A DNA stretch of 64,000 nucleotides from assembly GCF_001591385.1 (NCBI RefSeq), contig NZ_BCUU01000001.1, positions 62,001-126,000 of the forward strand. The letters are read 5' to 3'. Within the stretch, counting starts at the first letter, position 1. Each line of letters begins with the position of its first letter. Of the stretch, positions 14,134 through 42,242 are shown one piece after another. A model generated the notes under the pieces. The model made no database searches. It saw only the letters and a list, made by a program, of their open reading frames with translations, and was not told the DNA's origin. The stretch comes from Variovorax soli NBRC 106424. GTDB taxonomy: Bacteria > Pseudomonadota > Gammaproteobacteria > Burkholderiales > Burkholderiaceae_C. A program made the position numbers and the translations under genes.

Positions 14134-14297
14134 ACCTTCACTCCCCTTTGATGATGACGCCCCATGGCGGTGCGTTCGCGGGCATTCTACGTACTGATTC
14201 CATTGGCGAAAAGCGAAGCTGGCGCAGACGCGAGCACATCGGCCAATCGCGTACTTTGGCGGTACGCCATTGAACGAGCGACATCGCTGGAAAGGCA

Positions 14298-14333: not shown

Positions 14334-14354
14334 GCCGAAGATATACAGAAAGGG

Positions 14355-14430: not shown

Positions 14431-14509
14431 GTTCTTCTTGTTGTTGCTCTTCTTTTTCTTCTTGATTTTCTCGAAAGCTTGCCGAACATCACATCCGGCA
14501 AAGCCAGAG

Positions 14510-14515
14510 ATTATA
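14510..14515 (-). promoter_or_regulatory. perfect -10 box (TATAAT) upstream of tRNA-Lys
   Basis: On the minus strand a consensus TATAAT overlaps the TAA stop of tcdA and lies about 80 bp before the tRNA 5' end, at a position suited to an independent tRNA promoter. No good -35 hexamer is visible at 16-18 bp, so it remains a prediction. Confidence 0.45.
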
Positions 14516-26939: not shown

Positions 26940-27710
26940 ATGACGTCATCGCCCACCGACGCAGGTCGAAGCCCTCCGGCCCTTGCCCCGCACACGCCCC
27001 TGGCCGGCTACTACAAGGACGAGGTCGAGCACCGCGCCTACCTCCAGAAGATCTTCGACGACACCGCCCCCGACTACGAACGCATCGAGAACGTGCTGGC
27101 CTTCGGCTCCGGGCGCTGGTACCGGCGCCAGGCATTGCTGCGTGCCGGCCTGGCCGCGGGCGCCGAAGTGCTCGACGTGGGCATCGGCACCGGCATGGTG
27201 GCCACCGAGGCCCTGCGCATCATCGGCCCGGGCGGCCGCCTGGTGGGCGTGGACCCCAGCCCCGGCATGATGGGCCAGGTGCACCTGCCCGGCGTGGAGC
27301 TGGTCCAGGGCATGGCCGAAGCCCTGCCCCGGCCCGACGCCAGCTGCGATTTCCTGAGCATGGGCTATGCACTGCGCCACATCGGCGACGTGACGGCCGC
27401 CTTTGCCGAATTCCACCGCGTGCTGCGGCCCGGCGGCCGGCTGGCGGTGCTCGAGATCACCAAGCCCCGCGGCGCCCTCGGCACCGCCGCCCTCAAGGCC
27501 TACATGCGCAGCGTGGTGCCGATCATTGCCCGCTTCACCGCCCGCAAGGCGTCATCACCCGAACTCTGGCGCTACTACTGGGACACCATCGAGGCCTGTA
27601 TCGCCCCCGAGACAGTCCTGCAGGCGCTGCGCGACGCCGGCTTCGTGAACGTGCAGCAGCGGCTGGAGCTGGGCATCTTTTCCGAATTCACGGCGAGCAA
27701 GGCGCAGTGA
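26940..27710 (+). CDS. UbiE/COQ5-like SAM methyltransferase of the aryl-polyene locus
   Basis: Class I SAM-dependent methyltransferase with Rossmann motif I VLDVGIGTGMVA, motif GVDPSPGMMG, and post-motifs typical of UbiE relatives (MGYALRHIGD, HRVLRPGGRLAVLEITKP). It differs from housekeeping UbiE in its location: it opens a four-gene plus-strand unit and its stop overlaps the chorismatase start (GTGA). This points to a role in modifying the aryl head group or an intermediate of the pigment pathway rather than ubiquinone synthesis; that is inference. I start it at 26940 (MTSSPTDAG). Confidence 0.8.
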   Translation: MTSSPTDAGRSPPALAPHTPLAGYYKDEVEHRAYLQKIFDDTAPDYERIENVLAFGSGRWYRRQALLRAGLAAGAEVLDVGIGTGMVATEALRIIGPGGRLVGVDPSPGMMGQVHLPGVELVQGMAEALPRPDASCDFLSMGYALRHIGDVTAAFAEFHRVLRPGGRLAVLEITKPRGALGTAALKAYMRSVVPIIARFTARKASSPELWRYYWDTIEACIAPETVLQALRDAGFVNVQQRLELGIFSEFTASKAQ

Positions 27711-28732
27711 GGATCGGCACGCCCGTGGCTGCATCGGCGCTGACTGTCGAGCGCACGCCCCTGCAAAGTACGCTGCGCACCGGCGCGTTCGCGCATCCTC
27801 CGCTGGGCGCGTTGGCCTATGGCGAATCCAGCGAAGCAGCCTGGATGAGCGGCGTCAATGCGCCCATCCTGCTCGGGCAGGCACCCCAGGCCGACCTGCT
27901 GCTCGCCGGCGCACGCGTCGACACGGGCCGAAGCGGCGCCGTGCGCTGGCGCACCGACGGCCGCTGGGCCTTCGGCACCGTCGACCTGCCCGAAGACGGC
28001 AAGGGGCTCGAATCGACCGCCGACGCCGCCTATCGCGACCTGTTCCAGGCGCTGCAGGACACCGGATGCCCGCACCTGCTGCGCATCTGGAACTACCTGC
28101 CGCGCATCAACGAAGACGGCGGCGGGCTGGAGCGCTACCGCCAGTTCAACATGGGCCGCCAGCAAGCCTTCATCGACGCCGGGCAGGCAATCTACGAAGG
28201 CTCGCCGGCCGCCTGCGCGCTGGGTGCGCAACGCGGCGGCCTGGCGATCCGCTTCCTGGCCGGCCAGGCGGCGCCGCTGGCCATCGAGAATCCGCGCCAG
28301 GTGTCGGCCTACCGCTATCCCCGTGACTACGGGCCGCGCCCGCCCACCTTCTCCCGCGCAGCACTGGCGGACATCGGCGCCGGCCAACTGGCCCTGCTCA
28401 TCTCGGGCACGGCCAGCATCGTCGGCCATGCCACGGTGCACCTGGGCGACGTCGCCGAACAGACGCGCGAGACCTTGCGCAACCTGGACGCGGTGGTCGA
28501 GGCCGCCAACCAGCGCTGCAACGCCGGCTTCGATGTGGGCGGACTGCACGGGGTGGTCTATGTCCGCCACCCCGCAGATGCGCCACGCGTGCGGGACGTG
28601 CTTTCCGACACCCTGGGTGCCGACGCCCCGTTCCTGCGGCATGCCGTCTTCCTGCAAGCCGACATCTGCCGCCAGGACCTGCTGGTCGAGATCGAGGCCC
28701 ATGCCGTCGCCCGCGGCGCACTGAAGGCATAG
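27707..28732 (+). CDS. chorismatase family protein (XanB2/FkbO/Hyg5-like)
   Basis: 341-residue protein resembling the chorismatase family, which hydrolyses chorismate to hydroxybenzoates or dihydroxycyclohexadiene acids; XanB2-type members supply 3- and 4-hydroxybenzoate for xanthomonadin and ubiquinone. Recognisable segments are LLRIWNYLPRIN, ERYRQFNMGRQQAF and the C-terminal RidA-like half (GLHGVVYVRHPADAPRVRDVL). The start is GTG at 27707, overlapping the methyltransferase stop as GTGA. Its location in the locus suggests it makes the aryl starter unit that the AMP-ligase at 39.4-41.2 kb would activate. Product specificity (3-HBA, 4-HBA or DCDC) cannot be read from the sequence by eye. Confidence 0.8.
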   Translation: MRIGTPVAASALTVERTPLQSTLRTGAFAHPPLGALAYGESSEAAWMSGVNAPILLGQAPQADLLLAGARVDTGRSGAVRWRTDGRWAFGTVDLPEDGKGLESTADAAYRDLFQALQDTGCPHLLRIWNYLPRINEDGGGLERYRQFNMGRQQAFIDAGQAIYEGSPAACALGAQRGGLAIRFLAGQAAPLAIENPRQVSAYRYPRDYGPRPPTFSRAALADIGAGQLALLISGTASIVGHATVHLGDVAEQTRETLRNLDAVVEAANQRCNAGFDVGGLHGVVYVRHPADAPRVRDVLSDTLGADAPFLRHAVFLQADICRQDLLVEIEAHAVARGALKA

Positions 28733-28748
28733 GCACTGCACCTCGCGC

Positions 28749-29549
28749 ATGAAGCGTCTTCTTCGCAGGGCACAGCCCTTTCTCCTGGCGCCGCCGCTCT
28801 ATGCGCTGCTGATCGCGCTCGGCTTCGTGTCGCTGCTGTGGAACCTGCTGGCGCTGCCGCTGCGCGTGTTGCTGCCGCAGGCGTTGGGCCGCAGGCTCGG
28901 GCGCGCCGTCATCGCGCACTCCTACCGGCTGTTCTGGGCCGCGGCCTCCGCCAGCGGAATGATGCGGGTGGATGCGTCCTGCCTGGACGTGCTCAAGGAC
29001 GAGCGGGGCCTCATCATCGTCGCCAACCATCCCACCATGCTCGACGCCCTGCTGCTGGTGGCACGACTGCCGCGCAGCGCCTGCATCATGAAGGCCGACC
29101 TGATGCGCAACGTTTTTCTCGGCGCGGGTGCCAGGCTGGCGTGCTACATCCCCAACGATTCGGCCCGCGCCATGATCCGCCTGGCTGTGCAAGACCTGCG
29201 CCATGGCGGGCAACTGGTGATCTTCCCCGAAGGCACACGCACCGAAACGCCGCCGCTCGATCCTTTCCGGCCCGGCGTCACACTCATCGCCAAGCTGGCC
29301 AAGGCACCGATCCAGACCGTCTACATCGAGACCGACACGCCCTACCTGCGAAAAGGCTGGCCCATCTGGCGCGTGCCGCCGCTGCCCATCCGCGTCAAGC
29401 TGCGACTGGGCCGGCGTTTCGCGCCGCATGCCGACAGCGAAGCGCTGCTGCGCGAGCTTGAACAGTACTATCAGGGCCCCTTGAAAGAAGAGCGCGCCTC
29501 CGACGCGACAGCTGCATGCACGAGCCATCGCGCACCCACCTTGTCCTGA
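28749..29549 (+). CDS. PlsC-like 1-acylglycerol-phosphate acyltransferase family protein
   Basis: Membrane-bound lysophospholipid acyltransferase with a hydrophobic N-terminus (residues 10-60), the catalytic HxxxxD motif in ANHPTMLDAL and the FPEGTR motif. In aryl-polyene loci such enzymes are thought to help assemble the lipid anchor carrying the polyene. It starts 16 bp after the chorismatase stop and its 3' end overlaps the glycosyltransferase start by 34 bp, so the four plus-strand genes form one operon. Confidence 0.85.
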   Translation: MKRLLRRAQPFLLAPPLYALLIALGFVSLLWNLLALPLRVLLPQALGRRLGRAVIAHSYRLFWAAASASGMMRVDASCLDVLKDERGLIIVANHPTMLDALLLVARLPRSACIMKADLMRNVFLGAGARLACYIPNDSARAMIRLAVQDLRHGGQLVIFPEGTRTETPPLDPFRPGVTLIAKLAKAPIQTVYIETDTPYLRKGWPIWRVPPLPIRVKLRLGRRFAPHADSEALLRELEQYYQGPLKEERASDATAACTSHRAPTLS

Positions 29550-30292
29550 TTCCCAGCTACAACACCGGCGAACGCCTGTTTTCCACCGTGGCCGCGGCGC
29601 GCGCGCAGTGGAGCCCCGTGTGGGTGGTGATCGACGGCAGCACCGATGGCACCGGCGAGCGCCTGCAGGCCCTGGCCGCCACCGACCCCGGCCTGCGCGT
29701 GTTCGTGCTGCCCACCAACCAGGGCAAGGGTGCGGCCGTGCTGCACGGCCTGCGGCAGGCGCGCGCGCAAGGCTTCACGCACGCCCTCACCATGGATTCG
29801 GACGGGCAGCATCCGGCCGATCTCATCCCTTCGTTCATGGCGCGCTCGCAGGCCAGGCCCGAGGCCATGGTGCTGGGCAAGCCCGTGTTCGATGCCAGCG
29901 CACCGCTGCTGCGCGTGCGCGGCCGGCGCATTTCCAATAGCTGGACGGAACTCGAAACCCTGTTCGCCGGCATCGGCGATTCGCTCTACGGGTTTCGGGT
30001 CTACCCCATCGCGCCGCTCATCGCGGTCATGCAGGGCCAGCCCTGGATGCGCCGCTTCGACTTCGACACCGAAGCCGTGGTGCGCCTGGCCTGGCGCGGC
30101 GTCAAGCCGATCAACATCGACGCGCCGGTGAAGTACCTCAGCGCCGAGGAAGGCGGCGTCTCGCACTTCAACTATGTGCGCGACAACGTGCTGCTCACCT
30201 GGATGCACACGCGGCTGATGCTCGAGTTCGGGCTTCGGCTGCCGCTGCTGATCTCGCGTCGGCTGCGCAAGGCGCCGCCGTTCCAGCCCTGA
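29516..30292 (+). CDS. GT2 family glycosyltransferase
   Basis: Inverting glycosyltransferase of the GT-A fold. The N-terminal nucleotide-sugar region carries IDGSTDGTGERL and the metal-binding DSDGQHPAD. At 258 aa with no long C-terminal membrane segment it resembles the dolichol-phosphate-mannose synthase-like enzymes seen in aryl-polyene and xanthomonadin clusters. It probably transfers a sugar to the lipid carrier of the polyene (inference from context). It is the last gene of the plus-strand unit, convergent with the araC-type gene 26 bp away. Confidence 0.85.
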   Translation: MHEPSRTHLVLIPSYNTGERLFSTVAAARAQWSPVWVVIDGSTDGTGERLQALAATDPGLRVFVLPTNQGKGAAVLHGLRQARAQGFTHALTMDSDGQHPADLIPSFMARSQARPEAMVLGKPVFDASAPLLRVRGRRISNSWTELETLFAGIGDSLYGFRVYPIAPLIAVMQGQPWMRRFDFDTEAVVRLAWRGVKPINIDAPVKYLSAEEGGVSHFNYVRDNVLLTWMHTRLMLEFGLRLPLLISRRLRKAPPFQP

Positions 30293-30317
30293 AAAGCTGC
30301 GAACGAGGGGACTCCCT

Positions 30318-31346
30318 TCACCCAGGCGGCTTGCCGGCAGGCGCCATCGTCACTCCGGCTCGCCGACTCGCCTCCTGCCGCAGGTAGGCCGATGGCGACA
30401 AGCCCGACCAGCGGCTGAACGCCCTCGAAAATTCCTTGCCCGATTCGTAGCCTGCGTCCTCGGCGATGCGCACCAGCGGCATGGTGCCGGCCTCCATGGC
30501 CTGTGCAGCCACGGCCATGCGGTGCGCAGTGAGATAGCTGATCGGCGTGACCCCCACCAGATCCTTGAATCGCTCGGCGAAGCGCGTGCGAGACAAGCCT
30601 GCCTCGCCGGCGAGCGTGGCGACGCTCCAGGCCTGCCCCGGCGCACGGTGCATGGCCATGAGCGCGCGCGCGATGTTCGGATCGCCAAGACCGCGCAGCC
30701 AGCCTCCGCTTTCGCGGTTCCGTGCGGGCAGATGGGCCCGCAGCAGGTTCACCAGCAGCAGTTCGCCCATTCGTGCGGCGGACAGCCGCCAGCCGGCGCG
30801 GCGTTCGAGCGTTTCCTCCACCAGGCCCTGCATCGTCTGCCCGAGCACGCCGGCCATCGGCAGGTCCGCCTCGCGCATGCGAATGAACGGCGGCAGAACG
30901 CTCAGCACGACATGGCGGCAGTAGGCCGAGAACCAGATCTGCGCGGAGAACATCTCGGTCATCTCGCCGCCACCGCCGTGCTCGAAGACCAGCGGGTTCT
31001 CGTCACGGGGACCGCGCGCGTGGCGAGCGATCATGTCGGCGAACGGCGTGGTGCGGGCGCCGGGCGCGCTGACCAGGCGATGCGGCACGCCGGGCCGCAT
31101 CATGACGAGATCGCCGGGCTCGATGCGCATGGGCGGCATGCCTTCGATCTCCAGCCAATAGGAGGCGCGCCGCGCGAGCCGGATCATCGCGCCCGGCACG
31201 CCGTCCGAGGACAGGCCCCACGGCTCGCTGAGCGAGAAACGCGCCGTCACCGCATGCTCGGACCGGCAGATGGCCAGCACCTCGCTCAGGACATCCACGG
31301 CGTTGGATTCGTGCTCCTCTGATGGGGCTGGACGAATGGCGGTCAT
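30318..31346 (-). CDS. AraC family transcriptional regulator
   Basis: 342-residue regulator with an N-terminal cupin-like sensor (AraC_binding/cupin_6 type; EPGDLVMMRPGVPHRL) and a C-terminal double helix-turn-helix (WSVATLAGEAGLSRTRFAERF and IAEDAGYESGKEFSRAF). The start at 31346 (MTAIRPAP) is selected because the region upstream belongs to the divergent intergenic space. It faces a FAD monooxygenase gene across 127 bp and is the obvious candidate to control it. It interrupts what would otherwise be a continuous biosynthetic locus. Confidence 0.9.
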   Translation of the reverse strand: MTAIRPAPSEEHESNAVDVLSEVLAICRSEHAVTARFSLSEPWGLSSDGVPGAMIRLARRASYWLEIEGMPPMRIEPGDLVMMRPGVPHRLVSAPGARTTPFADMIARHARGPRDENPLVFEHGGGGEMTEMFSAQIWFSAYCRHVVLSVLPPFIRMREADLPMAGVLGQTMQGLVEETLERRAGWRLSAARMGELLLVNLLRAHLPARNRESGGWLRGLGDPNIARALMAMHRAPGQAWSVATLAGEAGLSRTRFAERFKDLVGVTPISYLTAHRMAVAAQAMEAGTMPLVRIAEDAGYESGKEFSRAFSRWSGLSPSAYLRQEASRRAGVTMAPAGKPPG

Positions 31347-31473
31347 AACGGGGGCCCCGGCGGTTGAACGCGAAGGGGCCTGCTTGAAGAATCCAGGCTC
31401 ACTCCTGCGGCGGTGAGGCGTTTCGATGATACCCACCGCCGGCCAGCCGATTGCACCTGAAGAAAGAAGCGAA
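31347..31473. promoter_or_regulatory. divergent promoter/operator region araC-type regulator / FAD monooxygenase
   Basis: A 127-bp gap between divergent starts. It holds an imperfect dyad, ctcac-N10-gtgag, and a GC palindrome (ggggcccc), either of which could be a regulator site. I see no convincing sigma-70 hexamers. Confidence 0.35.
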
Positions 31474-32628
31474 ATGAACACCAAGCCTCAAGCCGGCCGA
31501 TTGACCATCGGCATCGCAGGCGCCGGCATCGGCGGCCTGGCCGCCGCCATCGCGCTGCGCCGCGCCGGACACGACGTGATCGTGTTCGAGCAAGCCAGGC
31601 AGTTCGCGCGCGTGGGCGCCGACATCAACCTCACGCCCAACGCAGTGCGCGCGCTCGACGGCCTGGGCGTGGGCGAAGCCGCCCGGGTGACGGCCGCGCG
31701 CCCCACGCACCGCATCAGCCGCAGCTACGACAGCGGCGAAGAAACATCGCGCCTGGAAATGGCGGAAACCGCCGAGCAGAAGTACGGCGCGCCGCAGCTG
31801 ACCATCCACCGCGCCGACCTGCTCGCGGCGCTCACCGAAGCCGTGCCCGCCGAGTGCATCCAGCTGGGCCGGCGCGTGCAGGCCATCGCCCAGGATGCGC
31901 AGGGCGTCACGGTGCGATTCGAAGAAGGCGACGAGATGCGCGTGGACGCCTTGCTGGGCGCCGACGGCATCCACTCGGCCGTGCGCACCGCCATGTTCGG
32001 CGCCGAGAGCCCGCGCTTCACCGGCATCGTGGCCTACCGCGCCGTGGTGCCGGCCACCAGCGTGGCGGGGGTGCCCAACCTGGGCGCCTTCACCAAGTGG
32101 TGGGGCCCCAATCCGCAGAGCCAGATCGTCACCTTCCCGCTCAACCGCGGCAAGGACATCTTCATCTTCGCCACCACCGCACAAGACAGCTGGCACCTGG
32201 AGTCGTGGACCGCGCCGGGCAGCGTGGAGGAGCTGCGCGCCCAGTACGCCGACTACCACCCCGAGGCACGCGCCCTCCTCGATGCCTGCGACACGGTGCT
32301 CAAGACCGCCCTGTACGAGCGCGATCCGATGCCGGCGTGGACCCAGCGACGCCTCGCGCTGCTGGGCGACGCCGCCCATCCGATGCTGCCTTTCATGGCC
32401 CAAGGCGCGGGCATGGCCATCGAGGATGCGGTGGTGTTGGCGCGTCACCTGGAGGGTGCGAGCACCCTGACCGTGAGCGCTGCGCTGGAGCGCTATGCCG
32501 CGGCCCGCATGGAACGCGCCGCCAAGGTGCAACTGGGGTCGCGCGGCAACAACTGGCTGCGCGAGGGCGGCAACGCGGACTGGGTCTACGGCTACGACGC
32601 CTGGACCGTGCCCCTGGCATCGCAATAG
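31474..32628 (+). CDS. FAD-dependent aromatic monooxygenase
   Basis: Class A flavoprotein hydroxylase (salicylate hydroxylase / 3-hydroxybenzoate 6-hydroxylase / 6-hydroxynicotinate monooxygenase group). Visible are the FAD-binding GxGxxG (GIAGAGIGGLAAAIALRRAG), the DG motif (GADGIHSAVR) and the GD motif (LLGDAAHPMLPFMAQGAGMAIEDA). The start at 31474 (MNTKPQAG) is preceded by gaagaaagaagcg; the open frame begins at 31426. It would hydroxylate an NADH-fed aromatic substrate; given the nearby chorismatase, a hydroxybenzoate is a plausible but unproven substrate. It is divergent from the AraC regulator and convergent with the FabG-like gene. Confidence 0.87.
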   Translation: MNTKPQAGRLTIGIAGAGIGGLAAAIALRRAGHDVIVFEQARQFARVGADINLTPNAVRALDGLGVGEAARVTAARPTHRISRSYDSGEETSRLEMAETAEQKYGAPQLTIHRADLLAALTEAVPAECIQLGRRVQAIAQDAQGVTVRFEEGDEMRVDALLGADGIHSAVRTAMFGAESPRFTGIVAYRAVVPATSVAGVPNLGAFTKWWGPNPQSQIVTFPLNRGKDIFIFATTAQDSWHLESWTAPGSVEELRAQYADYHPEARALLDACDTVLKTALYERDPMPAWTQRRLALLGDAAHPMLPFMAQGAGMAIEDAVVLARHLEGASTLTVSAALERYAAARMERAAKVQLGSRGNNWLREGGNADWVYGYDAWTVPLASQ

Positions 32629-32647
32629 ACGCCGCGCCCGGCAGGGT

Positions 32648-33379
32648 TCAGATCATTCCGCCGTTGACCGAGATCACCTGCCCGGTGATGTAGCCCGCCT
32701 CGTCGCTGGCCAGGAAGGCGGCCAGCGCCGCCACTTCCTCGGGCGTGCCGGCGCGCTTGCTGGGCACCATCTGGTCGATCAGCGCCTTGTCGAACACCGC
32801 ATCCGCCATGGGCGAGGCGATGATGCCGGGCGCGATCGCGTTTACCGTGACGCCGCGCGCCGCCACTTCCAGCGACAGCGACTTGGTGGCGCTGTTGATC
32901 GCTCCCTTGGCCGCCGAGTAGTTCACCTGCCCCCGATTGCCGGTGAGCGAGGCCACGGACGACACGTTGATGATGCGACCCCAGCGGGTGCGCAGCATGG
33001 GCAGCAGCAGAGGCTGCGTCACGCGGAAAAAGCCGTTGAGCGAGACGTCGATCACCTTGTGCCACTGCTCGGCGCGCATGCCGGGCAGCACGGCGTCGTC
33101 GTGCACGCCGGCGTTGTTGACCAGGATCTGCACCGGCCCGCCGGCCAGGATCTTCTCGCAGGCCTGCGCGCAGGCTTCGTCGCTGCGCAGGTCGAACACA
33201 TGGCATTCGGCAGTGCCGCCCGCCTTGACGATGTCGTCGGCCAAGGCCTGCACCGACTCGGGCCTCGAGTTGGCGTGCAGCAAGACCGTGGCGCCGCCTG
33301 CCGCCAGCCGCCGTGCCATGGCCTGGCCCAGCGCGCCGCTGGCGCCGGTGATGAGTGCGCGTTTTCCGTTCCAGCTCAT
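32648..33379 (-). CDS. 3-oxoacyl-ACP reductase FabG-like (ApeQ/KR type)
   Basis: Short-chain dehydrogenase of 243 residues that would reduce the beta-keto group on the growing polyene chain. The NAD(P)-binding motif GASGALGQ, NNAG, catalytic Ser in NVSSVASL and the YxxxK motif in NYSAAKGA are all intact. The start at 33379 overlaps the upstream dehydratase stop (ATGA). It is the last gene of the minus arm; after it comes the convergent monooxygenase, where loci of this type usually encode a ketosynthase. Confidence 0.9.
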   Translation of the reverse strand: MSWNGKRALITGASGALGQAMARRLAAGGATVLLHANSRPESVQALADDIVKAGGTAECHVFDLRSDEACAQACEKILAGGPVQILVNNAGVHDDAVLPGMRAEQWHKVIDVSLNGFFRVTQPLLLPMLRTRWGRIINVSSVASLTGNRGQVNYSAAKGAINSATKSLSLEVAARGVTVNAIAPGIIASPMADAVFDKALIDQMVPSKRAGTPEEVAALAAFLASDEAGYITGQVISVNGGMI

Positions 33380-33846
33380 TGCGTGCCTTCCATGGATGCG
33401 AGGGGCGTGTTCAACACCACCACGGCCCGCCCCTGCGCCAGCGGGCGGCCGTCGGCGCCCTGCACGCTGAATTCGTAGAGGACCTGTCGTTCGTCGCCCG
33501 ACAGGCGATGGGCATGCACCTGCATCGCGCCCTCGACCTGGTCGAGCCGGTCGACGCCGAAGCGGACGGTGCGGACGCTGGCGAGGTAGCCGGCCGAAGG
33601 CGCCTGCCCCGCACTGGCCGTGAGGCCGCCGTGCAATGCCATGGCCTGCGCCGCGTACTCGATGGCATTGGGCGCCAGCAGGCCGCTGGCGGTGCGCAAG
33701 GGGTTGCCGGCGTCGCGGTGCGTCGTGGTGCTGCAATGGATGCGCTGCGCATCCCAGCTTTCGAGCTTTTCCAGCAGGCACATGCTGCCGCGATGCGGAA
33801 TGCGCTCGGCGATACCGGCGCGGTCGAGTGTCTGCACTGTGCTCAT
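33376..33846 (-). CDS. FabZ-like 3-hydroxyacyl-ACP dehydratase (ApeP type)
   Basis: 156-residue hot-dog fold protein with an N-terminal IPHRGSMCLLEKL segment (His as in FabA/FabZ dehydratases) and central ANAIEYAAQAMALH-like helix. In aryl-polyene pathways this enzyme removes water from the 3-hydroxyacyl intermediate to make the conjugated double bond. The start at 33846 overlaps the methyltransferase stop by ATGA and its own stop overlaps fabG, so the three are translationally chained. Confidence 0.82.
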   Translation of the reverse strand: MSTVQTLDRAGIAERIPHRGSMCLLEKLESWDAQRIHCSTTTHRDAGNPLRTASGLLAPNAIEYAAQAMALHGGLTASAGQAPSAGYLASVRTVRFGVDRLDQVEGAMQVHAHRLSGDERQVLYEFSVQGADGRPLAQGRAVVVLNTPLASMEGTQ

Positions 33847-34607: not shown

Positions 34608-35425
34608 GGTGCCAGCCCCTGCGGCAGGGTGACCGAGCGCAGGCCCTGCGCCTGCAGGCGCGCCAGCAAGGGCGGCAGCACCTCCAGCACCACGGGCAGA
34701 CCCTCGGGCGACCGCGCCGCATTGCCGTCATGCAGCAGGATGATGTCGCCGCCGGCAAGGCCGCGCGTGAGGCGCTCCAGCACGCGCTGCGCATCGCCCT
34801 CGCGCGTGTCGAAGCCGCGCCGCGTCCAGCTCACCAGCGTGAGGCCCATGCGCTGGAGCACGGGCGCCAGGAACATGTTGCGAAAACCGGCCGGCGCGCG
34901 AAAGCAGCTGGGCGTCTGCCCCGAGACCTGCGCCAGGATGCGCTGCGCGCGCCCGAGCTCGTCGGCATAGGCCCTGGGACCCAGGAACGAGAAGTCGTGG
35001 CGATGGCGTGCCGTGTGGTTCTGGATGCTGTGGCCGCGCCGGACGATCTCGCGCGCGACGGCCGGATACTGGGCCGCCCGCTCGGCAATGCAGAAGAAGG
35101 TGGCTTTCTGGCCGGCGGCATCCAGCAGGTCGAGCACGGCCGGCGTCACGTCGGGATCGGGGCCATCGTCGATGGTGATGGCCACCTCGCCGCGCGCCGC
35201 CGCCGCGGCAGGAAGGCGCGAGACATTGCGGCCCAGCAGCGTGCTGCGCGGCGTCAGGCCCGCGGCCGTGATCACCAGGTGGTTGAGCGCCACGGCGGCC
35301 AGTGCCCAGGGCGCCGCACCGGGCACCGACACCGCGGCCGCCAGGGCCAGCAGGTGCCACGCAATGCTGGCGCCCACGAAGGGCGTCAGGAGTCGGAGAG
35401 TCGAATCGGTAGCGGTGTAGGACAT
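34604..35425 (-). CDS. polysaccharide deacetylase (NodB homology) family protein
   Basis: Carbohydrate esterase family 4 domain with the metal triad: DDGP in AITIDDGPDPDVTP (two Asp) and the His motif GHSIQNH. One or two hydrophobic segments near the N-terminus (residues 15-60) suggest membrane attachment. The start at 35425 (MSYTATDST) gives 273 aa; the longer frame to 35518 overlaps the exporter gene. In this locus it could trim an N-acetyl group from the sugar added by the glycosyltransferase, which is inference. Confidence 0.83.
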   Translation of the reverse strand: MSYTATDSTLRLLTPFVGASIAWHLLALAAAVSVPGAAPWALAAVALNHLVITAAGLTPRSTLLGRNVSRLPAAAAARGEVAITIDDGPDPDVTPAVLDLLDAAGQKATFFCIAERAAQYPAVAREIVRRGHSIQNHTARHRHDFSFLGPRAYADELGRAQRILAQVSGQTPSCFRAPAGFRNMFLAPVLQRMGLTLVSWTRRGFDTREGDAQRVLERLTRGLAGGDIILLHDGNAARSPEGLPVVLEVLPPLLARLQAQGLRSVTLPQGLAP

Positions 35426-35477
35426 GCGAGCGAAAGTGCGTCGGACAAGCGGCCCGTTCTCAGCCAGCCATTTTCCC

Positions 35478-37874
35478 TCAAGCCGACGATGCACCGGACG
35501 ATGCCCGTGCACGCGCAAAGGCGGCCGACAACAGCAAGGCGAGCAGCGCCCCGGGCGCCACGACCCGGCCGATGGCCGCCAGCGAAGGTATCTGCGAGAT
35601 GGCGATGAGCCCGAAGGACACCACCGTCGTCAAATTGGCCAGCAGGAGCGACGCCAGCGTGTCTTCGTCGGCGCGGCCGGTGACGCGCAGCTGGTCGAAG
35701 AACAGCGCATAGTTGGAGCCGACCGCCACCACCAGCAGCAGCCCGACCAGGTGCAGGATGCCCAGCGGCACCCCCAGCGCCGCCAGCCCGCCCAGCGTGA
35801 GCAGCACGGCCAGCACCAGCGGCTGGCACACCGCCAGCAGGCGCGGGCCGGAGCGCAGGTACAGGCCCAGCAGCACGACCACCGACAGCGCGCCGGCCAG
35901 CACCTGCACGAAAGCCTCGCTCAGGTAGCGGCCATAGAGGCTGTCGAGTTCCACCTTGACGTCGATCACCTGGGTCGAGGGCAGCCCGGCCAGCGCCTGG
36001 CGCAAACGCTGCGCGTCGAAGCTGGGCGCCGTGTGCAGCGAAATCACCGAACTCCAGCCACCGCCCGGGCGCTGCAGCAACATGGCGTTGACGATGGGGG
36101 CCAGCGGCCCGCTCATCAAGTCTGCATGGCGAATGGGTGGCATGGACCTGGCCTGCGTGCTTTCCTCCACGAAGGCTTCCAGGCGCGAGGGCGCCAGCGG
36201 CAGCCCGCGCAGCGCTTCGGCGAGGCGCTGCCGCAGGGTCTGCGCATCGGGCAGGCTGTGCTGCCGCGCACGCTGGGCTGCCAGGCTGGGCAACACGCGG
36301 GTGACGGCATCGAACCCGGCCAGTTGGCCGTCATCGACCAGCGGCTGCAGGCGCTGGCTGGCCGCCTCGACGGCCTGCAGCGTGGCCTCCTCATCCGCAC
36401 CCTGGACGATGACGAGGGTGCGCGCGTCGCTGGCCCCCAGGTCGGCGCGCAGCTGCGCATCGGTTTCCTGCGCGCTGGCCGGCACCGGGCTCATGGCGCC
36501 CAGCCCCGCGCTCCACAGGTCGCCGCGCTGCCAGAACAGCAAGGCAGCCGATGCCACGCACAGGGCCAGCAAGGGCCAGCGCAGGCGCGGCAGCGCATGC
36601 AGCACCCAGGCCGCAAGCTGCGCCATGTGGCGGCGCAGGCCCTTGCCGGAGGCGCCGTCGGGCGCAAACACGGGCAGCACGTAGCGCGTGGCCAGGGCCG
36701 CCGCAACCAGGCCGGCCAGCGAGAACACGCCCAGCTGCGCCAGTCCCGGGAAGCCGGAGAACACCAGGGCGGCGAAGCCGCAGACGGAGGTCAGCAGGCC
36801 CAGGCGTACCGTGGGCCAGTGCACGTCGCGCCAGTGGCGCCAGCCGCTGCCGCGCGGCGCGCCTGGCACGCCCTGGCGGGCCTGGATCAGGTAGTAGATG
36901 GCGTAGTCGATGGTCTCGCCGATCAGTGTGCTGCCGAAGGCGATGGTCAGACCGTGCACATGCCCGAAGCCCAGCGCCACCGTCGCCGTGCCTACCACCA
37001 CGCCGGTGGCCACCGGCAGCATGGCGATGACCAGCGCCCGCGGCGAGGCAAAGGCCAGCAGCAGCAGGCAACCCACCACGATGCCGCCCACTACCGCGAG
37101 GTGGAAGGCCTCGCCCTTGATCTGCGCGCGGCTTTGCACCGAGAAGACCGGCGCGCCGCTCACCAGCAGGCGCGGCGCCGCGCCCTGGCTGCCCTGCAGT
37201 GCGCGGTCGAAAGCCGCACGCACTTCGGCCAGGGCCTGTTCCTGGGCGTCCAGGTCGCTGCCGGCGGCCTTGGTGGTGGCCAGCAGGATGGCGCGCGGGG
37301 CGGTTCGCGACACCCACACGCCCTGCTCGCTGCGCGGCGAGCTGGCCGGGATGAGCCCCTCGGCGATGTGCGCCATCTCGCCAGTCGGATCCCTTTCGAG
37401 CAAGGGCTTGAAGGCATTGCCCGCCGGCGTGCCCAGCAGCGACAGCGTGTCGAGGATGGCGTCGCGCAGGCCCTGCACGGTGAAGCGCTCTTCGTTCAGG
37501 TCAGGCGCCAGCTGATAGCGGTGCGCCAGCAGCCAGCTGCCGGCCTCGGTCCAGTCGGCAGTCTCGCCGTTCTGCACTTGTTCAAAGAGGCCGCTGGCCC
37601 GCAGCGACTTGGCCATGGCGCTGGACAGCTGGGCGCGCTGCTGCGCGTCGGCCCCGCCTTCGATGCCGATCAGCAGGCTGCGCGACGCAACGCCGCTTTG
37701 CAGCTGCTCGATGAGCATCTGCTGGCGCGCATCCGGCCGGGCGGGCAGGAAGGCCGACAGGTCGGCGCTGAAACGCGCGTTCTTGATGACCAGCACGCCG
37801 GCCACGAGCACGGCCAGCCAGACCAGCAGCGCGATCCAGCGATGCGGCGGGCGGTCCGGGGCCTGGCTGCTCAT
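35478..37874 (-). CDS. MMPL/RND-family exporter
   Basis: 798-residue inner-membrane protein with two repeats of a transmembrane helix, a large periplasmic loop and five further helices, the MMPL plan. The first helix is at about 13-31, a large soluble loop at 35-240, helices at about 240-400, then the second half with a matching loop and helices to the end. Such exporters accompany aryl-polyene and xanthomonadin loci and are thought to move the lipid-linked pigment toward the outer membrane. It lies 19 bp after the LolA-like gene. Confidence 0.9.
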   Translation of the reverse strand: MSSQAPDRPPHRWIALLVWLAVLVAGVLVIKNARFSADLSAFLPARPDARQQMLIEQLQSGVASRSLLIGIEGGADAQQRAQLSSAMAKSLRASGLFEQVQNGETADWTEAGSWLLAHRYQLAPDLNEERFTVQGLRDAILDTLSLLGTPAGNAFKPLLERDPTGEMAHIAEGLIPASSPRSEQGVWVSRTAPRAILLATTKAAGSDLDAQEQALAEVRAAFDRALQGSQGAAPRLLVSGAPVFSVQSRAQIKGEAFHLAVVGGIVVGCLLLLAFASPRALVIAMLPVATGVVVGTATVALGFGHVHGLTIAFGSTLIGETIDYAIYYLIQARQGVPGAPRGSGWRHWRDVHWPTVRLGLLTSVCGFAALVFSGFPGLAQLGVFSLAGLVAAALATRYVLPVFAPDGASGKGLRRHMAQLAAWVLHALPRLRWPLLALCVASAALLFWQRGDLWSAGLGAMSPVPASAQETDAQLRADLGASDARTLVIVQGADEEATLQAVEAASQRLQPLVDDGQLAGFDAVTRVLPSLAAQRARQHSLPDAQTLRQRLAEALRGLPLAPSRLEAFVEESTQARSMPPIRHADLMSGPLAPIVNAMLLQRPGGGWSSVISLHTAPSFDAQRLRQALAGLPSTQVIDVKVELDSLYGRYLSEAFVQVLAGALSVVVLLGLYLRSGPRLLAVCQPLVLAVLLTLGGLAALGVPLGILHLVGLLLVVAVGSNYALFFDQLRVTGRADEDTLASLLLANLTTVVSFGLIAISQIPSLAAIGRVVAPGALLALLLSAAFARARASSGASSA

Positions 37875-37893
37875 GCGTTGGGGGCCCGCCGGA

Positions 37894-38484
37894 TCAGGAG
37901 GACGCCTTGGGCGTGATCGTCATCACGGAGCGGTCGCCCCCGATGAACTCCATCTCCACGCCCAGCACCTGCCCCTGGCGGCCGCTCAGGCGCACGCTCT
38001 TGACCTGCGAGGCCAGGCGCTCGTCGAGCGGCTTCAGGTCCAGCGTCCAGTTGGCGGGGCTGCCGGCCAGTTCGGTGCGAAAGTGCTGCTGCAGCAGCTT
38101 CGAATCGCCCATGAGCGTGCCGCGCAGCGCGTCCACCATGCCCTGCAGCTCGGGCATGCTGTCCAGCGTCAGGGTGCGGGTGCGGCCGGCGCGCGACAGG
38201 GTCAGGGTGTTGCCGTCCACCATCATCGATTCGGGCCGCGGCGTCACGGTCTTGCGCGCCAGCTTGTCGGGCGCGGTGAAGCTCAGCGTGCCGGCCGAAT
38301 TCAACGGGCCGTCCACGCCGCGCACGAAACGCTGTTCGACAAAGCCCGCCTCGCCGCTCTTTTGCCGCGCCAGCTGGGACATCAGCTCGGACAGGTCGAA
38401 GGCCCAGGCAGGCGATGCGGCGGACAGCAGCAGCGCCAGGCCCAGCAAGATGGCATCAAGTCGCGTCTTCAAGCCAGAAATCAT
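37894..38484 (-). CDS. LolA-like outer-membrane lipoprotein carrier protein
   Basis: Periplasmic LolA-fold protein of 196 residues with a clear signal peptide (DAILLGLALLLSAASPAWA, cleavage after AWA). LolA-like features are the QKSGEAGFVEQRFVRGVDGPL strand and repeated beta strands (GTLSFTAPDKLARKTV). The start at 38484 (MISGLK) overlaps the upstream acyltransferase by 29 bp. It likely escorts a lipidic intermediate across the periplasm together with the MMPL exporter. Confidence 0.83.
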   Translation of the reverse strand: MISGLKTRLDAILLGLALLLSAASPAWAFDLSELMSQLARQKSGEAGFVEQRFVRGVDGPLNSAGTLSFTAPDKLARKTVTPRPESMMVDGNTLTLSRAGRTRTLTLDSMPELQGMVDALRGTLMGDSKLLQQHFRTELAGSPANWTLDLKPLDERLASQVKSVRLSGRQGQVLGVEMEFIGGDRSVMTITPKASS

Positions 38485-39445
38485 GGAAGTTGAACCAGTT
38501 GTGCGGATGTTCGCGGCACAGCGCCTCCAGGCGGGCGACATAGGTCTCGAGTGCCGCGCGGATCTGCGTCTCGCGCTCGGCGCCCGGGGTGCCCCGGCTG
38601 AAATCGGCCAGCGGCTCGAAGCGCACCTCGTAGTGTGACCCGCCCAGGTACAGCCCTGCCATGAAGAAGACCTTGCGCCGCAGCAGTGCCGCCAGGCGGA
38701 AAGGCCCGTCGTTGAAGCAGGCCGCCTGCCCCAGGAACGGCAGCTCGACGCTGTCGCCGCGCTGCCCCGCGGTTTCGTCGCTCTTGGGCAGGGTGCGGTC
38801 GGCCAGCAGGCCGGCCATGCCGCCGGCGTCCAGCCAGTCGCGCAGGCGCAGCATGGCTTCGGGCCGGCCCAGCGCGATCACCTCGGGGCGAAAGCGCGGC
38901 TCGCTGATGGCTTCGAGCACCGAGTTGATCTGCTGCGCGTTGTCGGGGTACATGAGCATGGCCAGGCGCAGCTGGTCCGGTGCATCGCTGGTGTAGCGGC
39001 TCGCGCCCACCGCCTCGAAGCTGCCCACATGCGCGCCGATCAGGAAGGCGCCTCGGCCGGCGGCCACTTCGGCATCCAGGGCCGGGGCGCCCTTCACATC
39101 GAAGGTGAACAGGTCGTGGCGTCCGCGCAGGAAATACACCCGGTCGAGCACGACCGAGGCAAAGGCATGGATCAGCCGGTAGCCGTCGTGCCAGCTCATG
39201 CGCTCCTCGCCCACCGTGCGCCGCAGGTAGCGCTTGATGTGCCGCCGCTGGCTCGGCGAGAACAGCAGGAAGTAGAAGCTCACGGCCGGCAGGATCAGGC
39301 GCACGACGCGACGCCCGCAGGTCAGCGCCAGCCAGCAGAAGAAGCGCAACACCAGCATGTTGCTGCGCTCGGGCGTGCGCGCCCAGTCGCCGGCGTCCGG
39401 CGTGGCCTGGGCACCGGCGTGTGCTTGCAGCGGCGGGCGGCTCAT
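38456..39445 (-). CDS. LpxL/HtrB-like lysophospholipid acyltransferase family protein
   Basis: Membrane acyltransferase of the lipid A late-acyltransferase family (329 aa). A hydrophobic segment at about residues 30-55 precedes the catalytic HxxxxE in GAHVGSFEAVG and the conserved SPSQRRHIKRYLRRTVG region. In aryl-polyene loci an LPLAT of this type (ApeD-like) is thought to move the polyene onto its lipid scaffold. Start choice: ATG at 39445; a GTG at 39451 would make a GTGA overlap with the AMP-ligase stop and adds only two residues. Confidence 0.85.
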   Translation of the reverse strand: MSRPPLQAHAGAQATPDAGDWARTPERSNMLVLRFFCWLALTCGRRVVRLILPAVSFYFLLFSPSQRRHIKRYLRRTVGEERMSWHDGYRLIHAFASVVLDRVYFLRGRHDLFTFDVKGAPALDAEVAAGRGAFLIGAHVGSFEAVGASRYTSDAPDQLRLAMLMYPDNAQQINSVLEAISEPRFRPEVIALGRPEAMLRLRDWLDAGGMAGLLADRTLPKSDETAGQRGDSVELPFLGQAACFNDGPFRLAALLRRKVFFMAGLYLGGSHYEVRFEPLADFSRGTPGAERETQIRAALETYVARLEALCREHPHNWFNFHDFWLEDAT

Positions 39446-39447
39446 GC

Positions 39448-41163
39448 TCACTCCGCGCCGCGGACCCAGCGGCCGCTGGCGGCCACCACGTCGCCGCAGC
39501 GGACCTCGAAGCGCACGCCGCCCGCCGGCCCTGCCTCGGGCTGCAGTTCGATGGTCAAGGTGGACTGGGGGCCGACCGGCGCCAGGAACTTGGCGGCGGC
39601 CAGGGTGGGCTGGGCCCCCAGGCGTGCGACCAAGGCCGGCACGCTGCCGATGGCCTCGCGCACCTCGGACAGGATCAAGGCGCCCGGCAGCAGGGGCTGG
39701 CCGGGGAAGTGGCCCGGGAAGGCTGGATGGTCGGCAGGCACCTCGCGCGTGAGACGAACCGTGTCGCCGTCCGCCGCCAGTTGCGCCCGCGCGAATTCGT
39801 TCAAGGTGCGCACGACCAGCTTGCCGGTGGCCTCACGCGGCAAGGCCTTCACGTGCACGACGCGCCGGGGCACGAACACCGCCTCGAGCCGCTGGCGAAG
39901 CTGCGCGACGATGTCTTCGTTCGACACCTCGGGCGCCACCACCAGGGCGACGGGGCGCACCACGCCGTCGGCCACGTCGTCGGGCAGCCAGAAGGCACCG
40001 TCCTGCACCCCGGGAATGCTGTTGAGGTGGTAGTTGAGGTAGCCCAGCGAGCTGCGCCGCCCCGCCACATGGATCAGGTCGTTGGCACGGCCCAGCAAGC
40101 GGAAGCGCCGCTCGTCGATGAGTTCGAGGATGTCGGCCATGGGCGTGGGCTCCGGCACGAAATCGCCTGCGAAGATGAAGCGTTCGCCCGCCTCGCCATG
40201 CTCGGCATGCACGCGGATATCGCCGAGCGTTTCCCACACATCGGTCTGCGTGGTGCGGCGTGTCGCCACCTGGCCGGTTTCAGTGCTGCCGTAGATCTCG
40301 ATCATCGGCCCGCCCAGGGCTTCTTCGGCTTGTGCCGCCAGCTGCGGCGACAGCGGCGCGGTGGCCGAAAGAATGAAGTCGACCGGCGGCAACTCGACGC
40401 CCGACAGCAGCAGCGTCTTCAGGTGGAACGGCGTGGTGACCAGGGCCCGGGGACGCGGAACGGCCGCCAGGGCCCGGGCGATATCGGCCGGAAAGAACGG
40501 ACGCCCGCTGTCGAAAGCCGCGCCGCCCAGCATGGCGAGCAATACCGACGACTCGAGCCCATAGCTGTGCTGCACGGGCACTGTCGCCACCAGCGTCAGG
40601 CCGTCGAGCGAGGGCCTGCCCAGCAGCGACGCGAGGCGCGGAACCGCAGCCGCCACGTCGCCCACCAGGGTGTCCCAGCGCTTGGCATGGGCCTGCGGCA
40701 CGCCCGTGGAACCGGAGGTGAGCAGGCTCACCGCGTGGCACCGGCCGTCGAAAGCCGGGATGCTGGCGACGGCATCAGCCGCCACCTCGCCGGATACCGC
40801 CGTTTGATACAGCACGCGCTCCAGGCCCGGCGTCACCAGGGCCGGGTCGTCCGTCAGGGCATAGCAGCGGTCGCCCGATTCATGCAGGCGCGCCAGCGTG
40901 TCGGGCCGCGCATCCGGCGGCAACAGGCTGGCCTGGCCGCGCAGCAGCGCGGCCGCCAGGCCCACGGCGAAGGCATAGCGGTCGGTGCACAGGTTGATGG
41001 CCGGGCCACCCTCCGGCAGCGCGGATGCCAGTTGTTGCGCGTCGGCCAGGAAGCGCCGCGCGCTGACCGGCACGCCGGCCTTCCACGCCATGGGCGCGTC
41101 GAGGTCCCGGCTGGCAAGGAGCGGCAGGGCCGACTGGCCCGCCGCGGACGTCAAGGCGTTCAT
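39448..41163 (-). CDS. AMP-ligase fused to a FabA/FabZ-like dehydratase (ApeH-ApeI type)
   Basis: 571-residue fusion. Residues about 1-450 form an adenylate-forming acyl/aryl ligase with the P-loop LLTSGSTGVPQ and the C-terminal catalytic Lys motif PREATGKLVV. The last 100 residues are a hot-dog thioester dehydratase with HPAFPGHFPGQPLLPG. In known aryl-polyene systems these are two proteins that activate the aryl acid onto an ACP and dehydrate chain intermediates; here they are one polypeptide. The start at 41163 overlaps the COG4648 stop as ATGA. Confidence 0.87.
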   Translation of the reverse strand: MNALTSAAGQSALPLLASRDLDAPMAWKAGVPVSARRFLADAQQLASALPEGGPAINLCTDRYAFAVGLAAALLRGQASLLPPDARPDTLARLHESGDRCYALTDDPALVTPGLERVLYQTAVSGEVAADAVASIPAFDGRCHAVSLLTSGSTGVPQAHAKRWDTLVGDVAAAVPRLASLLGRPSLDGLTLVATVPVQHSYGLESSVLLAMLGGAAFDSGRPFFPADIARALAAVPRPRALVTTPFHLKTLLLSGVELPPVDFILSATAPLSPQLAAQAEEALGGPMIEIYGSTETGQVATRRTTQTDVWETLGDIRVHAEHGEAGERFIFAGDFVPEPTPMADILELIDERRFRLLGRANDLIHVAGRRSSLGYLNYHLNSIPGVQDGAFWLPDDVADGVVRPVALVVAPEVSNEDIVAQLRQRLEAVFVPRRVVHVKALPREATGKLVVRTLNEFARAQLAADGDTVRLTREVPADHPAFPGHFPGQPLLPGALILSEVREAIGSVPALVARLGAQPTLAAAKFLAPVGPQSTLTIELQPEAGPAGGVRFEVRCGDVVAASGRWVRGAE

Positions 41164-41798
41164 TGGTGAAAAGCTCGGTCGGAGCGGCCGCCCATGGCCA
41201 CGCGCACGACGTCGACCAGGCGCGAACGCTCGAATTCCGGATGCAGGCGGTAGCGCATGAAATGCTCGCCCACGAAGAGCGCCACCACGCAAAGGGGCGT
41301 CAGCACATTCGCCAGCAGCGACCAGGCACTGAAAGACAGGGTGAGGTAGATGGCGACGGACACCAGCGCCATCAGCGCGAAATAGCCCACCCACACGGCC
41401 GTGACCTTGGCGGAATAGGCGCGCATGTCGTCGGACAGCGGATGGACGCGCTGCGCAAATTCCCCGATGAGGGACAGGCGCCCAGGCCGCAGGGTGCTGG
41501 CAAACCAGGCACACAGCACCACGTTGATGCCCACGTGCTGCAGCACATACAGGCGATTGGGATTACCGGCCTCGCCGTGGGAAATCACATAGATCAGCAC
41601 ACCGCCCGCGAGCAGCGCCAGCAGTGCGCCGACCCAGCCGAAGCGATTGGCGCCCAGGCCCAGCACGGCCAGCCACAGCGGGGCAAACAAGGCAGCAAGC
41701 GCCCAGGGAGCGGTTGCGTGGTAGAGCATCATCCAGTGCGACAGGCCGGCATACGCCAGCCCAGCCACCAGAATCAGTACCAGGCGCCATTGCGACAT
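41160..41798 (-). CDS. COG4648-family integral membrane protein
   Basis: 212-residue membrane protein with about five or six hydrophobic helices (e.g. VLILVAGLAYAGLSHW, AALFAPLWLAVLGLG, VGALLALLAGGVLIYVI). The family is found almost only beside aryl-polyene/xanthomonadin genes and has no proven activity. It lies between the ACP (17 bp gap) and the AMP-ligase (ATGA overlap), matching the order known from enterobacterial loci. Confidence 0.82.
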   Translation of the reverse strand: MSQWRLVLILVAGLAYAGLSHWMMLYHATAPWALAALFAPLWLAVLGLGANRFGWVGALLALLAGGVLIYVISHGEAGNPNRLYVLQHVGINVVLCAWFASTLRPGRLSLIGEFAQRVHPLSDDMRAYSAKVTAVWVGYFALMALVSVAIYLTLSFSAWSLLANVLTPLCVVALFVGEHFMRYRLHPEFERSRLVDVVRVAMGGRSDRAFHQ

Positions 41799-41815
41799 GG
41801 CGGGTTGCAGCGCGC

Positions 41816-42160
41816 TCAGGGCGCGGTGCGGTTCTGTGCGACGTGCGCCGCCAGGCTGCGCAACGACGAAAAGATCTGCTGGTTGCGCTCGTCATCCGAG
41901 CGCAACTGGAAGCCGTAGCGGCGCGAAACCTCGAGCGCCACTTCCAGGATGTCGATCGAGTCCAGGCCCAGGCCCTCGCCGTACAGGGGCGCTTCGGGCG
42001 CAATGTCCGCGGCGGCCACCTCGAGATTGAGCGCCTCCACCAGCAACACGGCCAATTCGTTCTCGAGCGGCGATTGCTCGTTGGCACCGCCAGCGGAAGG
42101 CTTAGAGGACTCTGCGGTCAATGACAAAGGGAAACTCCAACAGGTTGAGCGCCGCAACAT
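41816..42160 (-). CDS. acyl carrier protein of the aryl-polyene locus
   Basis: Phosphopantetheine-binding carrier with the attachment serine in [14 protein letters not shown], around the middle of a roughly 80-residue four-helix domain. The start is unclear: ATG at 42160 gives 114 aa with an atypical Arg/Cys/Ser-rich leader, while TTG at 42121 (LTAESSKPS) would give a more usual 101 aa; neither has an ideal ribosome-binding site. It is the first gene of the ten-gene minus arm and the only ACP visible in the locus. Confidence 0.85.
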
Positions 42161-42242
42161 ACACGGCAAGAATGCAAATTATAGGGAGGGGCCATTGGAT
42201 AGACTGGGGCCCCATCGAAGCTACCATTTCCTCGGAGTCCCC

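Follow-up and report, generated by a model that had tools for sequence, protein, structure and literature searches.

The closest characterised system is the arcuflavin pathway of Azoarcus sp. BH72, which makes a xanthomonadin-dialkylresorcinol hybrid from two unlinked arc loci, each essential for pigment, and for which Table 1 of the paper lists a single ACP (PMC3949708). In the Lysobacter xanthomonadin-like cluster, a ketosynthase (KS, ORF17) and a half-size CLF (ORF16) are both needed for pigment, and a V. paradoxus ORF16-17 pair without an ORF15 neighbour already appears in the Figure 5 legend of the same paper (PMC3691225). The ApeA-R genes of E. coli CFT073, in contrast, lie together without a break in 15.5 kb; that cluster has three KSs and two ACPs, and its gene table contains no chorismatase (PMC8253772).

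How does a cluster of this kind operate when it encodes no KS? The window analysed here is a 64,000 nucleotide stretch of Variovorax soli NBRC 106424. The locus at 26.9-42.2 kb, which its relatives place in Variovorax, is a predicted arcuflavin/xanthomonadin-type aryl-polyene cluster that would make a yellow pigment, with the following features:

26940..27710, + strand, UbiE-like methyltransferase (PF01209, 112 bits)
27710..28732 (exact start uncertain), + strand, chorismatase of the FkbO/Hyg5/XanB2 kind (PF21168, 138 bits; TIGR04444, 218 bits, below its cut-off of 325)
28749..29549, + strand, PlsC-type acyltransferase (PF01553, 63 bits)
29516..30292, + strand, family 2 glycosyltransferase, GT2 (PF00535, 77 bits)
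30318..31346, - strand, AraC-type regulator with a Cupin_6 domain (PF12852, PF12833)
31474..32628, + strand, flavin monooxygenase (PF01494; best NCBIfam match NF006021, 3-hydroxybenzoate 6-monooxygenase, 276 bits, below its cut-off of 459)
32648..33379, - strand, 3-oxoacyl-ACP ketoreductase, KR (NF004200, 334 bits, cut-off 273)
33376..33846, - strand, ApeP-like dehydratase, DH (weak PF22817 match, 14 bits, below its cut-off of 27; conserved place in relatives)
33843..33846, - strand, the position of KS-CLF in in-line clusters (ATGA, in which the MT2 stop overlaps the DH start)
33843..34607, - strand, methyltransferase MT2, in an ArcM-like place (PF13649, 39 bits)
34604..35518, - strand, polysaccharide deacetylase, in an ArcN-like place (PF01522, 100 bits)
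35478..37874, - strand, MMPL-type exporter (PF03176, 22 bits; HpnN-like, 82 bits, below cut-off)
37894..38541, - strand, LolA-like carrier (PF19574, 82 bits; flexirubin LolA2, 38 bits, below its cut-off of 125)
38456..39451, - strand, LpxL-type acyltransferase (PF03279, 30 bits)
39448..41163, - strand, AMP-ligase fused to a FabA-like dehydratase (PF00501, PF13193, PF07977)
41160..41798, - strand, COG4648-like membrane protein (place and tblastn relatives)
41816..42169 (start uncertain), - strand, acyl carrier protein, ACP (PF00550, 32 bits)

The published description of the Azoarcus system shares with this gene set the chorismatase, AMP-ligase, single arc ACP, KR, dehydratases, polysaccharide deacetylase, LolA, exporter and methyltransferase, as well as a KS with an N-terminal-KS-domain protein, a dar locus and unlinked genes. 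The E. coli cluster shares the ligase, dehydratases, KR, LolA-like protein, RND-family exporter, acyltransferases and COG4648 protein (PMC8253772 Table 1). The initial annotation had measured the locus against E. coli-type loci and counted its single ACP as an anomaly; this is the wrong yardstick. The nearest characterised system is itself split, and one ACP is normal for this subtype, as the Azoarcus arc loci illustrate.

Most of the parts named in that annotation have profile matches: the chorismatase, ACP, ligase/FabA-like dehydratase, KR, two acyltransferases, LolA-like carrier, MMPL exporter, GT2 and two methyltransferases. The ligase and ACP domains (PF00501, PF13193, PF00550) score above cut-off, as do the FabA-like domain and the KR. 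The second dehydratase is backed by its conserved place and tblastn matches in relatives beside the sub-threshold profile score. The COG4648 name is that of the annotation, and the protein, which gave no Pfam or NCBIfam match in the profile search, is supported by place and tblastn relatives; the polysaccharide deacetylase had been left out of the parts list and is a member of the locus. The ligase frame is over-long: matches in relatives begin no earlier than about residue 119, and the start is probably at 41163, adjoining the COG4648 stop. The AraC regulator and flavin monooxygenase (30318-32628) separate the two arms of the locus. Among mapped loci they occupy this place only in the nearest metagenome-assembled genome (L046), and locus mapping found neither at the corresponding place in Variovorax OV329 (L048). 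The regulator is probably a recent insertion outside the core pathway, and the monooxygenase is probably a recent insertion too.

The absence of a KS from 26.9-42.2 kb, as first read from the sequence, is upheld. In a whole-genome profile search, the contig that holds the window gave no match to PF00109, PF13723 or PF02801, which matched at 12, 1 and 5 places genome-wide, and three simple motif patterns for a KS, one covering the Cys and two the His residues, matched nothing in any of the six frames of 26.9-42.3 kb. On these grounds we reject the idea that the locus conceals a KS or carries a frameshifted one. Relatives having the same gene set with a KS in or near the locus, which the initial annotation had named as a refuting observation, do occur among many outgroups, and these reveal how the gap arose. 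Their order is polysaccharide deacetylase-MT2-KS-CLF-DH-KR; here it is polysaccharide deacetylase-MT2-DH-KR, so that the KS-CLF of relatives sits exactly between two genes that abut in the window. In 14 of the 58 mapped loci no KS precedes DH, in 26 an in-line KS-CLF does, and the other 18 are truncated or otherwise arranged (L054, L058 and G136 being one strain). A Xylophilus metagenome-assembled genome (L061) still has KS-CLF at the same HerA-flanked site. Loci L091, L093 and L095 contain ligase, DH, KR and GT2 and gave no KS match, and no KS follows MT2 within the sequence covered for L075-L078 and L081.

The search of the remaining genome, proposed in the initial annotation, found KSs on other contigs. 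Contig C38 encodes a KS (NF006618, 503 bits, cut-off 407) with the Cys, His, His residues conserved in all 70 aligned KSs, and C40 encodes a CLF-type half-size KS (PF13723, 83 bits, above cut-off); KS and CLF, missing within the cluster, are thus present elsewhere in the genome. The two contig ends have 27 bases in common, and the order MFS-KS-CLF-RR-HK is found in five relatives. A PAP2-ACP-KS trio on C198/C4 provides a further KS and ACP. A dialkylresorcinol (dar)-type locus lies on C138 and C107, whose ends share no bases: C138 encodes an ABC ATPase and a DarB-like protein (561 bits, above the StlD/DarB subfamily cut-off of 450; 449 bits, below the DarB-specific cut-off of 550), and C107 has ABC permease-like, ACP, KS and DarK-like frames, named from the order in Azoarcus. 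The assembly is a draft in which both the KS-CLF pair and the third KS span contig ends.

The unlinked KS is present in all 49 Variovorax genomes searched (one match, in G022, is partial) and the ligase in 48. KS and ligase share a contig in 16 of the 48 genomes with both, always at least 1.97 Mb apart, and lie on different contigs in the other 32. Four KS matches (G007, G011, G017, G045) contain an in-frame TGA. Together with the genome search, this genus-wide conservation supports the earlier suggestion that a KS and an ACP encoded elsewhere serve the cluster.

We consider it very probable that this cluster encodes the larger part of an aryl-polyene pathway whose genes are split, and in which an unlinked xanthomonadin-type KS-CLF elongates the chain, having displaced the native pair. 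By homology, the chorismatase would supply 3-hydroxybenzoate, which the AMP-ligase would load onto the ACP; the unlinked KS and half-size CLF would extend it in trans, with the KR and dehydratases predicted to act in each round and the trio KS and ACP probably helping. The acyltransferases, GT2, LolA-like carrier and MMPL exporter would, again from their homologues, attach the product and export it to the outer membrane, and the dar-type locus suggests that the polyene may be joined to a dialkylresorcinol, as in arcuflavin. In the published description, the Azoarcus KS arm includes DH, KR, GT and chorismatase, whereas here KS and CLF alone are apart and are of the xanthomonadin type, not the in-line Burkholderiales type. 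The xanthomonadin and Lysobacter systems likewise have a KS and half-size CLF pair. In the three Xanthomonadales loci mapped (L102, L155, L156) this pair forms a divergent unit within the cluster, adjoining a GT2-like gene; the Variovorax pair is flanked by an MFS gene and a two-component pair, at a great distance from the cluster.

A family sample of 200 genomes contained 50 with the ligase and 57 with a KS. A KS lies 3.5-16 kb from the ligase in 39 of the 50, and in two further genomes the in-line arrangement is interrupted by a contig break. Eight genomes (G000, G031, G044, G136, G224, G152, G238, G122) have no KS-CLF before DH in the mapped ligase cluster. All eight carry a xanthomonadin-type KS (assigned for G031 and G044 from 79-80% identity, outside any tree), and seven lack the in-line type. 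G122, typed in a KS tree of a chosen subset plus its two KSs, has an empty slot, yet keeps an in-line-type pair, with the xanthomonadin-type pair on another contig. The xanthomonadin type occurs in 12 of the 57 KS genomes, ten at 70-100% identity (the first seven of the eight above, with G085, G161 and G247) plus G241 and G122. Both types coexist in five lineages (G085, G247, G161, G241, G122), which leaves room for an earlier, different role of the unlinked type.

The unlinked KS groups with those of Xanthomonas, Stenotrophomonas and Rhodanobacter, and joining it to the in-line clade is rejected (AU p 5e-37; the groups received their names with earlier trees already in view, so that p values are indicative). 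The first KS tree left out duplicates L060, L072 and L105, the far outgroup L103, L112 (which has a stop), rows under 340 residues and L139-L153 (15 rows). A later KS tree also clusters the unlinked KS with those of Xanthomonas, Lysobacter and Stenotrophomonas. The cluster itself falls among Burkholderiales in the MMPL tree. Plain relocation of the in-line KS-CLF is rejected by the KS tree and unsupported in the CLF tree, where the long-branched G588 row sits among the unlinked rows and keeps them from forming one clade; G588 lies inside the unlinked group in the later KS tree as well. A single loss for the Variovorax/Xenophilus and g105 clusters is rejected (AU p 5.5e-48, MMPL tree of 38 chosen rows). 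There were at least two losses of the in-line pair, each in a lineage that carries the unlinked type. Most likely a xanthomonadin-type KS-CLF replaced the native in-line pair in trans: it would have entered the family separately, making the native pair dispensable. The Variovorax/Xenophilus ancestor would then have lost the native pair from its slot between MT2 and DH, and another genus would have lost it as well. We infer the direction of transfer. There is perhaps an even chance of the fuller reading, that a foreign KS-CLF megabases away displaced the engine of a vertically inherited Burkholderiales cluster at least twice independently, that the module is portable and that the xanthomonadin-type pair sets chain length in Variovorax.

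Could the unlinked pair instead be an ancient paralogue that predates the split of Burkholderiales and Xanthomonadales, followed by differential loss? This concerns origin only, and we regard it as possible, if rather unlikely. The trees are unrooted, and a test on a KS tree of a chosen subset plus eight named proteins does not reject a single Xanthomonadales clade that excludes the unlinked KSs (AU p 0.138), which leaves Xanthomonadales as a candidate donor; against the paralogue reading, the type's restricted occurrence in the family sample would demand many losses.

It is improbable that the trio KS or FabF elongates the chain while the unlinked KS-CLF works in a different pathway. The trio KS is found in 48 of 49 Variovorax genomes, in five of which (G001, G006, G026, G034, G036) its distance from the ligase is about 14 kb at most, and the five lineages that keep both KS types would fit such a division. 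However, FabF models are its best profile matches, no CLF was seen adjoining it in this genome or in the maps of relatives, and in both cases where the in-line type was fully lost, the lineage has the unlinked type. The trio KS, or a distant relative of about 40% identity (L080, L083), also adjoins an in-line KS-CLF in L110, L164, L080 and L083, and so is no substitute for the in-line pair. A non-polyene product made without iterative elongation, also raised in the initial annotation, is very improbable: the missing KS and the 3-hydroxybenzoate 6-monooxygenase-like gene mid-locus would suit it, but KR, dehydratases, ACP and exporter are kept, among mapped loci the monooxygenase and AraC genes occupy this place only here and in L046, and with a conserved KS-CLF pair completing the gene set the proposal is unneeded. 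Decay to a productless locus, the third earlier suggestion, can be given hardly any credence, for although KS-CLF is gone from its ancestral slot, the reading frames of the window are intact, MT2 and DH are joined through the ATGA overlap, ligase and KS are conserved across the genus, and the in-frame stops in 5 of 48 ligase matches all lie in matches that take in the over-long N-terminus.

A cluster without its core enzyme is therefore not necessarily dead, as supply may come from megabases away and be conserved genus-wide, and cluster-mining that requires a KS at the locus would overlook the larger half. If displacement did occur, Variovorax would be a natural experiment on KS-CLF exchange between aryl-polyene pathways. 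Split pigment pathways are already known, and the KS-CLF swap seems to be a variant of them; Table S2 of PMC3949708, which covers V. paradoxus S110, may already contain this arrangement. Clusters are split in other ways in G143, where ligase and KS are 0.92 Mb apart, in G122 and in Dechloromonas loci, and the Variovorax lineage is therefore not alone in having a split cluster.

How might an aryl-polyene cluster of the arcuflavin/xanthomonadin type build its chain without a ketosynthase (KS)? The initial annotation had described the cluster at 26.9-42.2 kb as KS-less, and this is borne out: profile searches matched no KS anywhere on its contig (C1, of which the window is 62001-126000), and three KS motif patterns gave zero matches in the six frames of 26.9-42.3 kb. 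Most of the parts listed in that annotation were also recovered by profile search, with a polysaccharide deacetylase to be added. The AMP-ligase/FabA-like dehydratase (ligase) has its closest match (86%) in a MAG locus and also matches loci of Variovorax OV329, J22R133, Root318D1 and dokdonensis. The two arms of the locus are separated by:

30318-32628, AraC regulator and flavin monooxygenase

The monooxygenase is closest to 3-hydroxybenzoate 6-monooxygenase, with a score below the cut-off; an enzyme of that kind could turn 3-HBA, the chorismatase product, into gentisate. Both genes occupy the same place in MAG locus L046 (92% and 86% identity) and are absent from Variovorax OV329 (L048). Elsewhere in the window, a minus-strand reading frame of 3520 codons (4123-14685) overlaps tRNA-Lys (14355-14430) with its 5' part, so its true start is probably further in.

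Chain elongation with a KS and ACP encoded elsewhere had been one proposed explanation, and a KS with its half-size partner (CLF), a third KS and further ACPs are indeed present outside the window. Across the 5.6 Mb draft (239 contigs), PF00109 matched in 12 places, among them a type I PKS-size frame on contig C4, a 429-residue KS on C52 that stands beside a FabH-type match and is presumably FabF, and seven short, weak, thiolase-like matches. At the end of C38 is a KS scoring 503 bits to NF006618 (cut-off 407), with Variovorax proteins as its best named relatives; on this ground and that of the ligase matches, the genome is treated as Variovorax. After this KS a second gene begins and is cut off within its first codons; the remainder of it, a PF13723-type half KS, is on C40, and the two contig ends have 27 bases in common. 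They agree with the order MFS, KS, CLF, response regulator, histidine kinase found in five genomes (G026, G034, G047, G224 and G136). A PAP2-ACP-KS trio with a FabF-like KS lies in two pieces, on C198 and the end of C4. A dar-type locus is represented by C138 (L104), with a StlD/DarB-family KS above the subfamily cut-off and an ABC ATPase, and C107 (L014), with an ABC-permease-like frame, ACP, DarJ-like KS and DarK-like protein.

The unlinked KS, of xanthomonadin type, was found in all 49 genomes of the genus within an 81-genome sample (partial in G022, with in-frame TGA in four), and the ligase in 48, the 630-contig draft G010 having no match. KS and ligase are 1.97 to 4.01 Mb apart in the 16 genus genomes with both on one contig, and on separate contigs in the other 32. 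In other families of the order, the KS is 2.4-12.2 kb from the ligase in six of seven ligase genomes and on another contig in G074. The ligase occurs in 50 of 200 family genomes, every one of which has a KS as well: at 3.5-16 kb in 39, in line across a contig break in two (G155, G222), of unlinked type only in seven, and split otherwise in G143 and G122. In G014 the unlinked KS is present twice, once on each of two contigs (C1:339521 and C2:1268736). Of the 49 genus genomes, 48 have the trio KS; it is close to the ligase in five but not in most others, and in some Variovorax genomes the trio sits inside the cluster, in the GT2-KR slot (L025 1-3252, L027 18083-20000, L123 14650-16470). The trio thus provides a third KS and a second ACP whose position varies. 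DarB exceeds the subfamily cut-off in 24 of the 49, the window's genome included, and the dialkylresorcinol (DAR) half would therefore be optional and the polyene half not.

Gene order in relatives reveals an emptied slot. In-line clusters read polysaccharide deacetylase, methyltransferase MT2 (absent in some), KS, CLF, dehydratase (DH), ketoreductase (KR); 26 of 58 ligase-match loci carry KS-CLF in line before DH. MT2 is followed directly by DH, through an ATGA overlap, in the window, and the same direct succession is seen in 14 further Variovorax/Xenophilus-group loci and in the loci fetched from the five genomes named and from G031 and G044. G152 has the same junction; in G238 both MT2 and KS-CLF are missing ahead of DH. 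The Xylophilus MAG locus L061, one of the 26, carries KS-CLF in line, its cluster at the same HerA-flanked site as the window's. Three other MAG loci (L091, L093, L095) hold COG4648, ligase, DH, KR and GT2, with no KS, acyltransferase or exporter match nearby.

Phylogenetic analysis (70 KS rows) groups the 11 unlinked KSs as a clade (99/92) within a broader one (100/99) that also holds Rhodanobacter, G588, G423, G287, G593 and the second KS of G241; 22 in-line Burkholderiales KSs form a separate clade (100/99), and the in-line family rows G272, G143, G115 and L084 fall elsewhere among in-line KSs. A tree constrained to join the 11 and the 22 is worse by 205 log units (AU p 5e-37). The G423 KS is identical to a Stenotrophomonas-named protein, with Xanthomonas, Lysobacter, Luteimonas and Pseudoxanthomonas among the relatives listed for it. 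With six such proteins included, the division between unlinked and in-line KSs has 100/100 support, and the CLF tree has the same division, with unlinked and Xanthomonadales CLFs together (99/89). The unlinked type may have come from Xanthomonadales, though Xanthomonadales as one clade without it was not rejected (AU p 0.138). In the MMPL tree, the window's cluster is sister to L061 (100/100) and nested in the family's clusters, far from the three Xanthomonadales rows. Genus g105 (G152, G238) lacks in-line KS-CLF, has the unlinked type, and has a cluster that groups with in-line clusters, apart from Variovorax/Xenophilus; a single clade of the two was rejected (AU p 5.5e-48), and there were therefore at least two full losses, both in unlinked-type lineages.

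Judging from homologues, the chorismatase would supply 3-HBA, the ligase would activate it, KS-CLF would elongate it iteratively with KR and the dehydratases, and the product would then be attached and exported. KS and half-size CLF are both reported as required in Lysobacter (PMC3691225), and in Azoarcus, whose split arcuflavin loci were already known, disrupting a gene at either one of the unlinked loci by insertion abolished the pigment (PMC3949708). By analogy, these two other organisms support function of KS-CLF in trans. Polyene and DAR clusters are described together in three V. paradoxus strains (PMC3949708), and a 2013 figure legend has a V. paradoxus KS-CLF pair without its usual neighbour (PMC3691225). 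Open-access literature, mostly at the level of titles and abstract openings, yielded no announcement of KS-CLF displacement in trans.

The slot is also emptied in G122, which kept an in-line-type KS on another contig with a xanthomonadin-type KS beside it, the latter sister to the second KS of G241 (100/100). Both KS-CLF types stand there in tandem with MMPL, LolA and ACP on one contig, and ligase, DH, KR and chorismatase are on another, a different split (loci L160 7960-12139 and L159). G241 has both types within ~7 kb (L041 1123-8329), the xanthomonadin-type pair directly past the KR of a complete in-line cluster.
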